Origin: Spirochaetota bacterium
Lineage (GTDB): Bacteria; Spirochaetota; Spirochaetia; SPDA01; B32-G16
Length of the DNA stretch: 45,856 nt
Assembly (NCBI GenBank): GCA_003645645.1
Contig: QNBH01000004.1
Coordinates: 1-45,856, forward strand
Direction of reading: 5' to 3'
Shown: piece by piece, positions 15,687 through 20,104 of the stretch
How positions within the stretch are numbered: position 1 is the first letter of the stretch
Layout of the letters: every line of letters starts with the position of its first letter
Notes under the pieces: generated by a model
What the model was told of the DNA's origin: nothing
Databases searched by the model: none
What the model saw: only the letters and a program-made list of their open reading frames with translations
Made by a program: the position numbers and the translations under genes

Positions 15687-16010
15687 ATGTCAGAGAACCA
15701 CCAGACTTACGAATATGCTTTAAAGGAACTCTCTCTTGCCCTTGCAAAAACGGACGACGAAGAGCTCATAGAGAGATTTCTAAAAAGCCTCCTTACTAAG
15801 TACGAACTTTCGGAGATATCTTCACGCTGGGCTCTGGTAAGGCTGATCGATGAGGGTATAAGCCAGAGAAAAATAGCTCAAAAATTGGGCTTAAGCCTCT
15901 GTAAGATAACCAGAGGCTCAAAAGAGCTTAAAAAAAAAGACTCTGCATTCAAAAAACTAATCGACCGCTATAAATTGGTTTCTGAAGTTAAGGAGAAAAC
16001 CTTAAGTTAA
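15687..16010 (+). CDS. Trp repressor (TrpR)-family transcriptional regulator
   Basis: This 107-residue all-helical DNA-binding protein has the TrpR helix-turn-helix intact: RWALVRLIDEGISQRKIAQK then LGLSLCKITRGSKELKKKD, matching the family's SQRELKxxLGxxxxTITRGSN. TrpR itself is a dimer that binds DNA when loaded with tryptophan. The residues that contact tryptophan cannot be judged by eye here. It is divergent from the aminotransferase with about 80 bp between coding starts, and no trp biosynthesis gene is nearby, so it more likely controls the adjacent catabolic operon. The start is the first ATG; the AAAGG upstream is too close to be a good ribosome site. Confidence 0.88.
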   Translation: MSENHQTYEYALKELSLALAKTDDEELIERFLKSLLTKYELSEISSRWALVRLIDEGISQRKIAQKLGLSLCKITRGSKELKKKDSAFKKLIDRYKLVSEVKEKTLS

Positions 16011-16068: not shown

Positions 16069-16120
16069 AGTGGATTTAGCGGAGGCATCTCCCTCTTCAC
16101 ACGGTTGATTTTTTTCGGGA

Positions 16121-16148
16121 AGCATACTAAACTAATGTTTAGTATGCT
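16121..16148. promoter_or_regulatory. Perfect 28-bp palindrome over the start of the dnaE-like gene
   Basis: Arms AGCATACTAAAC (16121-16132) and GTTTAGTATGCT (16137-16148) are exact reverse complements around TAAT. The candidate start ATG 16135 lies in its centre and ATG 16147 at its edge. It can be an operator for a dimeric repressor (the core AAAC-N4-GTTT resembles the layout of an SOS box) or an RNA hairpin hiding the start codon. Confidence 0.6.
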
Positions 16149-19100
16149 GAGGTATTCTGCAGGATATTCCCCCCTCTACCGGCGCTCCTTCTACTCTCTC
16201 CTTCGAGGTTGTCTGTCTCCTGAAGAGTTGTGTATACACGCTGCGGAAGGGGGTCACACTTCCGTGTGCATGGTAGATATAAACAACTTTTACGGCCTTA
16301 TCCGGTTTCTCAAGGCTGCAAAAAGAGCAGGGTTAAAACCCCTGACCGGAGTAACCATTGCTCCGGATGGAGGCTCGTCTTTCACTGCTCTGTGCTTGAA
16401 TGCAAGTGGATTCGCCAGGGCAAATCGGATTATCACTTCTCTCCTTGCCACCGGTAGAGCGGAGAAGAGGGAAGCTCAAACCGTAAAAAACTATTGTGCT
16501 GGAAAGCCGGAAGATTTAAGCAACCCTGGCTACGATCCCATGGAAGACCTTGTAGAAAACGGATGGGATGGGTTGTGGATAGTCTCTTCTTCAATTGCGG
16601 TGCTGGAGAGGCTTTTAAACAGGGATAGGAATAACATTTTTGCCGGCCTTACCTGGGGTCGCCCTTTCGCCAGGCTCTCTTCATGGGCACGAAAACGGGA
16701 GATACCCCTGCTGGCTGTAAACGAAGGAGTTTACCTTGGAGAAGAGGAGCAGAATCTTTACCATCTTTTAAGGGCAATCGATCTTAATACTACAGTGGAC
16801 AGGCTGACGCAGCAAGAGCTGCCCTTGCCCGAGTATAGAATTGTTTCGGATTCCGAGATGGAGAGGTTTTTCTCTGCGGTTCCGGATGCAATTTACAACG
16901 CACAGCGCTTCGCCGAGGAGGCAGATATAAGGGGCATCCTCAGAGAGGAGTATATATTTCCCCGCTTCAACGGCTACTCCCAGGAAGAAGCTTACAGGTT
17001 GCTTAAAAGGCTCTGCCTGGACGGTGTAACCAGGAGATATGGATCAATGCGTCCGGATATTCACAAGCGCCTCTTTTACGAACTATCAATTATTAGAAAA
17101 AAGGGTTTTTCGGATTACTTCCTTGTAGTTTACGATATAGTAAAGAGATGTCCCCGTACCTGCGGGAGAGGCAGCTCTGCTTCGAGCATAGTTTCCTACT
17201 TACTCGGCATAACTCATGTGGACCCCCTTAAACACAACCTTTTTTTCGAGCGTTTTTTAAACGAAGGAAGAAAAGACCCACCGGATATCGATGTGGATTT
17301 TCCCTGGGACGAAAGGGATAGGGCCCTTTCCTATGTATTTCAACGCTATAGAGGGCGGGCGGGGATGGTAGCGGATCATGTTACCTTCGGGTCTCGTTCC
17401 AGTCTGCGTGAAGCAGCCAGGGCTGCGGGGCTCCCTGAAAGCGAAATAGAGAAAATCATCAGACAGAGCAGATATGGAAGCACCGGAGGGATACCCGAAT
17501 ATCTCTTGAGGGCAGGCGAAAGGCTTAAGGGGATGCCAAGGCATATAGGTACCCATCCAGGCGGGGTGGTAATAACCCCGGGCCCTATAACCGATTACAC
17601 CCATCTCCAACCTTCTCAGACAGGGTTTCCCGTTATAGCATGGGAGAAAGATGCAACAGAGGATGCCGGGCTGGTAAAGATCGATCTCCTGGGCAACCGT
17701 TCTCTGGCAGTCTTGCGAGACTGCATAGAACTTGTAAACAAGAAGCGTAAAAGCCCCATTACATGGGAGCAGTTCAATCCGATAGGAGATAAGAAGACAC
17801 GAAGACTGATCGAGCATGGGGATACTCTTGGAGTGTTTTATATAGAATCGCCTGCCACCAGGCAGTTGCTCAAAAAAATGGGCCGGGGGGATTACGAACA
17901 CCTGGTAATTGCCAGCTCTATTATTCGTCCCGCTGCCAACAAATATATCAGGGAGTTCGTTCAAAGACTCAGGGGAGGGGAATACACTGCTCTTCATCCA
18001 TTGCTGGGGGAGACTTTGCGGGAGACGCTTGGAATAATGGTATACCAGGAGGATGTAGCCAGGGTAGCCATTAAGGTCGCAGGGTTTTCTCCTGCGGAAG
18101 CCGATGCTCTTAGAAAAATACTTTCCAAGAAGGACCGGGAATTGAGGCTTGATGCGTATCGGGAACGTTTTTTTCTGGGGGGGGCAAAACAGGGAGTGGA
18201 CAGGGGTACAATGGAAAAACTCTGGGAGATGATCCTCTCTTTCGAAGGTTACTCATTTTGCAAGGCACACAGCGCCTCCTATGCACTCGTCTCCTACCGG
18301 CTTGCATGGCTTAAGTGTTACTATCCACTGGAGTTTCTCGTCTCTGTCATAAATAATCGGGGCGGATTCTATGCCCCTCAGGTCTATCTGGATGCAGCCA
18401 TGCGTATGGGGGCAAAGATACTCCCTCCGGATGTAAATGAAAGCCAATGGGAATGCACGGTTTCGGATGGGGCTATAAGAATCGGGCTTTCCTGGCTTAA
18501 ATCCATTCCCCGGTCGTTTATTCAACAAATAATCAGGGAGAGAGAGGCAGGAGGAAAGTACAGGAGTTTTTTCGATTTTATCCATCGTCTCTCTCCTGAG
18601 TTTTCCCGGATGAGGGTGCTAATCCGTTCAGGGAGTCTGGACAGTGTGGCAGAAGGTTTATCCAGGCCCCAACTTTTCTTAAGCTATTTCCATACGAATA
18701 AAAACTACTCTCTTTTCGGGTTGACCCCACCCGTGGCTGTAGGTGATTACTCATGGCGCACCAGAGTACTGGATGAGGTGCGAACCTTCGGCCTTGTTAT
18801 ATCGTGTCATCCGCTGGAGATTTTTTCCGGCATCCCTTCGAAGGTCAGGGCAATGGGATTACCCCGGTTAATAGATTCGGATAAAATTCTTAAGAATGTG
18901 GGTCGTAGAGTAACTATTGCCGGTATGCTTATCGCCGGAAAGGAGGTTTTAACGAGAAACAGAAGCTTTATGAGCTTTGTAAGTTTCGAAGACCCTTATT
19001 CGGTTTTCGAGACGGTGCTCTTCCCCCGCGACTACGAAAGGCTTAAAAGCAAACTGGATACAGGTGTTTTATTCCTTGTGATTGGGAAGGTTACAGAAGA

Positions 19101-19158
19101 ATTGGGAGTCTGTACAATCGAAGTACAGGATTTGCTGCCGTTCAGATCGTTGAAATAA
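16135..19158 (+). CDS. DNA polymerase III alpha-type polymerase (DnaE2/ImuC-like)
   Basis: This C-family polymerase of about 1007 residues is shorter than replicative DnaE. The catalytic signature GRGSSASSIVSYLLGI then KDPPDIDVDFPWDERD is present (Asp386 and Asp388, with Asp384 alongside), and the third acidic residue is in KIDLLGNRSLAVLRD. GTHPGGVVITP and IAWEKDATEDAGL resemble the second, translesion type of DnaE. The N-terminal PHP domain is eroded: where HxH and DHN metal motifs are expected it reads YRRSFYSLLRG and MVDINNFYG, so proofreading or metal binding is unlikely. An OB-fold region closes the protein. The start is uncertain: ATG 16135, ATG 16147 or TTG 16105; none has a good ribosome site. 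No imuA/imuB partner lies nearby. Confidence 0.88.
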   Translation: MFSMLRYSAGYSPLYRRSFYSLLRGCLSPEELCIHAAEGGHTSVCMVDINNFYGLIRFLKAAKRAGLKPLTGVTIAPDGGSSFTALCLNASGFARANRIITSLLATGRAEKREAQTVKNYCAGKPEDLSNPGYDPMEDLVENGWDGLWIVSSSIAVLERLLNRDRNNIFAGLTWGRPFARLSSWARKREIPLLAVNEGVYLGEEEQNLYHLLRAIDLNTTVDRLTQQELPLPEYRIVSDSEMERFFSAVPDAIYNAQRFAEEADIRGILREEYIFPRFNGYSQEEAYRLLKRLCLDGVTRRYGSMRPDIHKRLFYELSIIRKKGFSDYFLVVYDIVKRCPRTCGRGSSASSIVSYLLGITHVDPLKHNLFFERFLNEGRKDPPDIDVDFPWDERDRALSYVFQRYRGRAGMVADHVTFGSRSSLREAARAAGLPESEIEKIIRQSRYGSTGGIPEYLLRAGERLKGMPRHIGTHPGGVVITPGPITDYTHLQPSQTGFPVIAWEKDATEDAGLVKIDLLGNRSLAVLRDCIELVNKKRKSPITWEQFNPIGDKKTRRLIEHGDTLGVFYIESPATRQLLKKMGRGDYEHLVIASSIIRPAANKYIREFVQRLRGGEYTALHPLLGETLRETLGIMVYQEDVARVAIKVAGFSPAEADALRKILSKKDRELRLDAYRERFFLGGAKQGVDRGTMEKLWEMILSFEGYSFCKAHSASYALVSYRLAWLKCYYPLEFLVSVINNRGGFYAPQVYLDAAMRMGAKILPPDVNESQWECTVSDGAIRIGLSWLKSIPRSFIQQIIREREAGGKYRSFFDFIHRLSPEFSRMRVLIRSGSLDSVAEGLSRPQLFLSYFHTNKNYSLFGLTPPVAVGDYSWRTRVLDEVRTFGLVISCHPLEIFSGIPSKVRAMGLPRLIDSDKILKNVGRRVTIAGMLIAGKEVLTRNRSFMSFVSFEDPYSVFETVLFPRDYERLKSKLDTGVLFLVIGKVTEELGVCTIEVQDLLPFRSLK

Positions 19159-19204
19159 GTTTTGTTGTTTATTTTAATTTAATAAGAGTCGATATTTAAA
19201 TGTG

Positions 19205-20104
19205 ATGAAAGTACTTATAGCTTATGCCTCAGAACAGGGAGCCATAATCGATGCCATTGTAGATACGTGCAGGAGAATCAAGTTAGGGGTTGACCTTTAC
19301 GAAGTCTCCCATGGAGAAACTGCGTTGGAATCGGGGTTATACGAAAGGTTAAGCAGTAGTTCCTCCGTGCTGCTCGTAATTTCTCAGGAGAGATTTTCCG
19401 AGGGCTGGGTTGTCTTCTCTGTGGGATACATGTTGGGGAGAGGCGATCGGGGGCTGCTTTATATTCCGTTTATGGAGAGGGAGATACCAGAATATTTTAA
19501 GAAACTCTCGATAGCCTCTAGTCAGAAAGAACTGGAGTATTATTACCGGGAGGAGAAGAGGATCTGGAATCAGAGAATTGCAGTAGAAAGGGCAAAGACT
19601 AAACTAGCCGCTAAAGGTATTAGCTTTACAGAACCCGCCTTTATTAAGTGTGTAGAGAGGGGAGAGAAAACAGCAGTCAGGTGCTTTTTAGCTGCAGGAT
19701 TTTCTCCCAATGTTCGTAATGAAAAGGGAGTGCCTCTTCTGTCTCTGGCAGTAAGAAACAGAAAGAAAGAACTGATACCCATGCTTCTTTCGGCCGGGGC
19801 CGACCTGAATATAATTAGTCCGGACAACGGAAACTCCCCTTTGATGGATGCTGCTGCAATTGGTGAGAGAGATATTGTTGAGCGTTTTATAGAGAGCGGT
19901 GCAAATCTAAATGTACAGAGCAAGAACGGCCAGACAGCCCTCATTCTGGCGGTGGGGAAAGGTTCTTACGATATAGCAGAAAAACTCATCAGATCAGGAG
20001 CAGATATATCAATCAAAGACAATCTTGGAATGTCTGCTATTCAGTATGCGCGTCTTTTTAAACGAAACGATATTATTAAAGTGATCGAACATTGTGTTAA
20101 TTAA
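19205..20104 (+). CDS. TIR-like domain protein with ankyrin repeats
   Basis: The roughly 299-residue cytoplasmic protein begins MKVLIAYASEQGAIIDAIV and continues with VLLVISQERFSEGWVVFSVGYMLG, a pattern matching a TIR fold over about residues 1-115. Where TIR NADases carry a catalytic Glu after the conserved Trp, this sequence has Ser (WVVFSVG), so it is probably not an NADase. A linker helix (about 100-135) leads into about five ankyrin repeats (for example LLSAGADLN, FIESGANLNVQSKNGQTALI, LIRSGADISIKDNLGMSAI). It is a protein-interaction or signalling protein of unknown role. ATG 19205 is preferred over the GTG one codon earlier; no Shine-Dalgarno sequence is visible. It follows the polymerase by about 45 nt. 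Confidence 0.65.
   Translation: MKVLIAYASEQGAIIDAIVDTCRRIKLGVDLYEVSHGETALESGLYERLSSSSSVLLVISQERFSEGWVVFSVGYMLGRGDRGLLYIPFMEREIPEYFKKLSIASSQKELEYYYREEKRIWNQRIAVERAKTKLAAKGISFTEPAFIKCVERGEKTAVRCFLAAGFSPNVRNEKGVPLLSLAVRNRKKELIPMLLSAGADLNIISPDNGNSPLMDAAAIGERDIVERFIESGANLNVQSKNGQTALILAVGKGSYDIAEKLIRSGADISIKDNLGMSAIQYARLFKRNDIIKVIEHCVN

Follow-up and report, generated by a model that had tools for sequence, protein, structure and literature searches.

A conserved 20-bp dyad at the start of a DnaE-family polymerase gene is very probably a LexA operator in Spirochaetia

Results

An inverted repeat covers the start of a polymerase gene

We examined a 45,856-nt stretch of DNA from a Spirochaetota bacterium (contig QNBH01000004.1, positions 1–45,856; hereafter the window), in which an inverted repeat overlies the start of a DnaE-family polymerase gene. 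A UPF0164 gene is also present in the window, and just 3' of the polymerase gene (19202–20104) lies a gene for a protein with ankyrin repeats whose N-terminus weakly matches TIR (TIR_2, E 0.0002, below cut-off). The features of the locus are as follows.

15687–16010, plus strand: TrpR-family repressor gene, directly upstream of the polymerase gene; a bystander in our reading
16105–16110, plus strand: −35-like hexamer TTGATT, 17 bp from the −10-like hexamer
16121–16148, no strand: inverted repeat with 12-nt perfect arms and a 4-nt non-palindromic centre, TAAT
16125–16144, no strand: putative LexA-type operator of 20 bp, TACTAAAC-TAAT-GTTTAGTA
16128–16133, plus strand: −10-like hexamer TAAACT (TAWACW in relatives), within the operator
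16144–19158, plus strand: DnaE-family DNA polymerase gene (about 1004 aa), probably with a leaderless start

The repeat reads AGCATACTAAAC-TAAT-GTTTAGTATGCT in the window, and its 12-nt arms are the longest among the inverted repeats found there. The original prediction had described a perfect 28-bp palindrome; the two arms match perfectly as reverse complements, whereas the TAAT between them is not palindromic, making the element a 12+4+12 inverted repeat. Its statement that the repeat covers the candidate start codons was borne out, with an in-frame ATG at both 16135 and 16144. When the whole window was simulated 20 times with an order-2 Markov model, allowing loops of up to 12 nt, a single inverted repeat with 12-nt arms arose, giving ~0.05 expected per window. 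By length alone the repeat is suggestive, that is, unusual and not overwhelming.

The 20-bp core of the repeat is conserved in spirochaete orthologs

We then compared ortholog loci drawn from 60 related genomes and further named genomes, some of which occur under two names. Across 26 sequences aligned on the box, column conservation was restricted to a 20-bp dyad with the consensus TACTAWAC-N4-GTWTAGTA and to a separate TTG peak 17 bp from the −10-like hexamer. The outer arm bases of the repeat (AGC/GCT) vary among relatives and only the inner 16125–16144, which matched RCTWWACNNNNGTWWAGY exactly in a pattern search, is conserved. What relatives keep is the sequence itself and not pairing alone, a distinction the original prediction had proposed to check.

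The box was found at or just before the start of the polymerase ortholog in every spirochaete locus with an intact 5' end (25/25; PWM scores of 21.9–26.9), scores that are high partly by construction, since the motif matrix (PWM) was trained on 16 sites from the relatives themselves. Independent tests came from the class-wide hits described below and from shuffles: none of 10,000 shuffled upstream regions reached a PWM score of at least 20. One of 589,171 background positions did so, and this sole match was the site upstream of recA in L052. Among 26 non-spirochaete homologs of the polymerase the box was absent (0/26), with a best PWM score of 11.7.

These counts bear on the simplest explanation, that the repeat arose by chance or is the terminator of the upstream gene. 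With ~0.05 such repeats expected per window, chance could have produced it as far as the sequence of this locus goes, and the original claim that it was very unlikely by chance could not be decided on length. Conservation in all 25 orthologs refutes a chance origin, however, and a terminator scan found no terminator-like site, so that we give this explanation practically no weight.

The box overlaps a putative promoter and the transcript is probably leaderless

The −10-like hexamer lies inside the box, and the TTG conserved separately in relatives belongs to the −35-like hexamer. A consensus promoter scanner did not list TTGATT-17-TAAACT, because TAAACT scores low. In relatives, the start codon mostly falls 10–13 nt past the −10 with no visible Shine-Dalgarno sequence; the exception, L144, has a purine-rich leader. 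Promoter geometry and the relatives together make ATG 16144 a likelier start than ATG 16135. Since the start codon directly follows the promoter without a Shine-Dalgarno sequence, the polymerase mRNA is probably leaderless, with its transcription start placed by this geometry; many mRNAs of this type occur in Leptospira, where they are common (PMC5243855).

This arrangement also bears on whether the repeat folds in RNA into a hairpin masking the start codon, a translation switch that the original prediction had considered equally possible. The arms would be able to pair in RNA, and they overlap both ATG 16135 and ATG 16144. However, the predicted transcription start falls within the right arm, which would leave the left arm untranscribed; the dyad also occurs at unrelated genes, among them mraZ, where it stands about 147 bp upstream, and its conservation extends beyond pairing. 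We therefore do not place the two on an equal footing and consider a hairpin switch extremely unlikely.

The polymerase belongs to a family found in lexA-linked cassettes

The polymerase contains PHP, Pol3 alpha, finger, HHH and OB domains and ends at the OB fold, with no tau-binding CTD, and the window's genome (G000) also encodes a separate, normal DnaE1 (G000:C16). It thus has the makeup given for DnaE2/ImuC, a CTD-less C-family core additional to DnaE1 (PMC3919608). It passed the superfamily model TIGR00594 (DNA polymerase III alpha), and scored below cut-off with the DnaE1 equivalog models and with the DnaE2 model NF004225 (505 bits vs a cut-off of 939). In our tree, spirochaete DnaE1, canonical DnaE2 and the family of the window polymerase separated with strong support; the window polymerase fell among spirochaetes, and all of its nearest orthologs were spirochaete MAGs, which together with the UPF0164 gene fits a Spirochaetota assembly. 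A record titled Borreliella garinii (isolate SulCav; L157) clusters with uncultured spirochaete MAGs, and its name is probably a mislabel.

Of 53 homologs from outside the spirochaetes, 34 have lexA and a Y-family/ImuB-like gene immediately before them in the same orientation. A Desulfosarcina plasmid copy, annotated as lexA-DUF72-(hypothetical)-dnaE, clustered in the tree with the operon forms of G010 and G029. Neither ImuB nor ImuA is encoded beside the window gene; an ImuB-like neighbour is present in G010, in G029 and in most non-spirochaete homologs. Operons joining Y-family polymerases with DnaE2, often also with lexA, have been described (PMC6511836). By its sequence relationships the polymerase is a member of this lexA-imuB-dnaE cassette family, and given the lexA-linked cassettes of the family elsewhere, the window gene looks like a surviving cassette polymerase that has lost its neighbours and kept SOS control. 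Its activity is predicted to be error-prone.

The box recurs at SOS genes across Spirochaetia

Other genes behind the box were sought with an exact-pattern search of 19 genomes, using the reversed pattern as control. This returned 28 exact boxes vs 11 for the control. The polymerase gene accounted for 16 of the 28, mraZ/DUF1820 for 5, rSAM_link_UDG for 2 and a DUF72–Y-family–dnaE operon for 1, which left 4 unexplained. The last four (G000:C150, G054:C12, G019:C28 and G024:C22) were treated as probable chance matches. When 3 mismatches were allowed, the genome-wide count for the pattern fell below the control and was uninformative.

In G010 (exact box) and G029 (near-match box), the box heads the DUF72–Y-family–dnaE operon and not dnaE itself, and in G051 it sits between divergent dinB and dnaE genes. 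A near-match box precedes recA in G019, the one genome overall with a box at this gene. The class-wide scan placed the box before umuD (6 genomes), dinB (2 genomes), uvrA, an integron integrase gene and an ImuA-like gene; it also added four rSAM_link_UDG genes, a box preceding this gene in 7 genomes overall. In G040 a box also lies upstream of a canonical DnaE2-type gene. Elsewhere, COG4277 (rSAM/UDG) and imuA-imuB-dnaE2 both belong to SOS regulons (PMC8565304). Among the class-wide sites, several that fall within long ORFs, and one close to a Cas9-like gene, were set aside as chance. The integrase site (L315; G078:C54) is just upstream of a TIGR02249 gene and suggests that a spirochaete has its integron integrase under SOS control.

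In the window's own genome, the three SOS genes checked (lexA, recA and dinB) had no box, and the single other credible box lies upstream of mraZ/DUF1820. The box regulon of this genome looks very small, since those three genes are without a box. A second box near DNA-repair genes, which the original prediction had called for, is thus found in relatives (umuD, dinB, uvrA, recA, imuA and rSAM-UDG) but not at the organism's own recA, lexA or dinB. Separately, a two-mismatch box in L037 (G000:C248:3557-3576) lies just upstream of a transposase-like gene, either by chance or as part of an SOS-linked mobile element.

The distribution of the box also speaks to the TrpR-family protein encoded at 15687–16010, which could use the box as its operator and act as a local repressor of its neighbour. 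A TrpR-family gene is directly upstream of the polymerase gene in six genomes (G000, G001, G002, G003, G024 and G044), and TACTA...TAGTA recalls the half-site of the E. coli trp operator. However, the half-site spacing of the box differs by 4 bp from that of trpO, and the box recurs at umuD, uvrA and dinB and not at tryptophan metabolism genes. We rejected the TrpR-family neighbour as the regulator, a role we consider very unlikely, because four genomes (G013, G028, G036 and G048) keep the box without any TrpR-family gene.

LexA is the probable regulator

LexA is encoded in all 19 genomes tested. The organism's own LexA scored 201.8 bits with TIGR00498 (cut-off 111) and retains the Ala-Gly cleavage site together with the Ser/Lys motifs. 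The conserved dyad overlaps the promoter of the gene it would control, and it recurs at core SOS genes (umuD, dinB, recA, uvrA, imu) in the same clade. Since the genes behind the box form an SOS regulon, the regulator is expected to be LexA, and we infer with high confidence that the 20-bp element is a LexA (SOS) operator. The original reading of the repeat as a LexA-type operator is supported by ortholog conservation, recurrence at SOS genes in relatives, the presence of LexA in all the genomes tested and the place of the polymerase family in lexA-imuB-dnaE cassettes.

Autoregulation of lexA is common, not universal, and we found no box at lexA; the organism's own lexA is an internal gene of an operon, preceded by an NtrC-type regulator gene, and is not visibly autoregulated. 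We did not treat autoregulation as a strict criterion because Leptospira lexA is likewise not autoregulated according to work cited in PMC3789691. An NtrC-type response regulator gene precedes lexA, overlapping or nearly so, in L002 and L065–L082, with a different gene upstream in L066 (G010); in G000, lexA is followed by a holA-like gene.

In the mechanism that we propose, a LexA dimer would bind TACTAWAC-N4-GTWTAGTA in undamaged cells. Bound LexA would cover the −10 and the probable start site of a sigma-70-type promoter (TTGATT-17 bp-TAAACT), barring RNA polymerase and stopping transcription of the leaderless mRNA for the DnaE-type translesion polymerase. Upon DNA damage, RecA filaments would trigger LexA self-cleavage, the operator would empty and the mutagenic polymerase would be made.

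A box upstream of mraZ

In 11 genomes mraZ is preceded by a box at a distance of about 147 bp: the window's own (G000:C83:10332-10351, which is L128 4333-4352) and those of L110, L113, L119, L120, L122, L288, L295, L298, L301 and L321. Five of these mraZ regions came from the class-wide scan. These boxes are usually accompanied by small divergent genes, encoding DUF1820 and an 84-aa protein of unknown function. In several mraZ regions, the mraZ strand carries a TATTATCGG-like element after the box. That LexA also directly controls the division cluster in this spirochaete clade is a tentative idea that we think unlikely to be correct; if true, damage may raise MraZ, or the divergent DUF1820/84-aa proteins, to stop division in place of SulA. 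Because LexA control has already been reported for the dcw cluster of E. coli (PMC3265435), the novelty would be confined to the clade and the proposed effector.

Discussion

Like the LexA operators of E. coli and Gram-positive bacteria, the spirochaete box is a short dyad over promoters of DNA-repair and translesion genes. Its outer spacing is that of the E. coli SOS box, and its AAC-N4-GTT core resembles the Gram-positive box (GAAC-N4-GTTC type). In sequence TACTAWAC-N4-GTWTAGTA differs from both, the E. coli box being CTGT-N8-ACAG (PMC8565304); unlike those operators, it was not found at lexA and probably overlaps a leaderless mRNA start. The Leptospira boxes (LexA1, TTTGN5CAAA; LexA2, TTGTAN10TACAA) likewise serve a spirochaete LexA with small regulons that include a dinB-type gene, but they differ in sequence and spacing and are reported at recA, recN and dinP, not dnaE (PMC3789691). 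The box is almost certainly a switch of a known type whose recognition sequence we did not find described for this bacterial group; our search of the open-access literature returned no LexA recognition sequence for Spirochaetia outside Leptospira.

The lexA-imuB-dnaE2 and imuA-imuB-dnaE2 cassettes (PMC3919608, PMC6511836) also place a CTD-less DnaE under LexA control. In contrast to these, the polymerase stands alone in the window and in most spirochaete relatives, with no imuA or imuB beside it, and it branches apart from canonical proteobacterial DnaE2.

Together, our results provide a testable LexA recognition sequence for Spirochaetia outside Leptospira. They suggest that SOS control persists in Spirochaetia for a polymerase that stands alone and is related to the lexA-imuB-dnaE mutagenesis cassette, and with the box in hand the SOS regulons of uncultured spirochaetes would become predictable from sequence.
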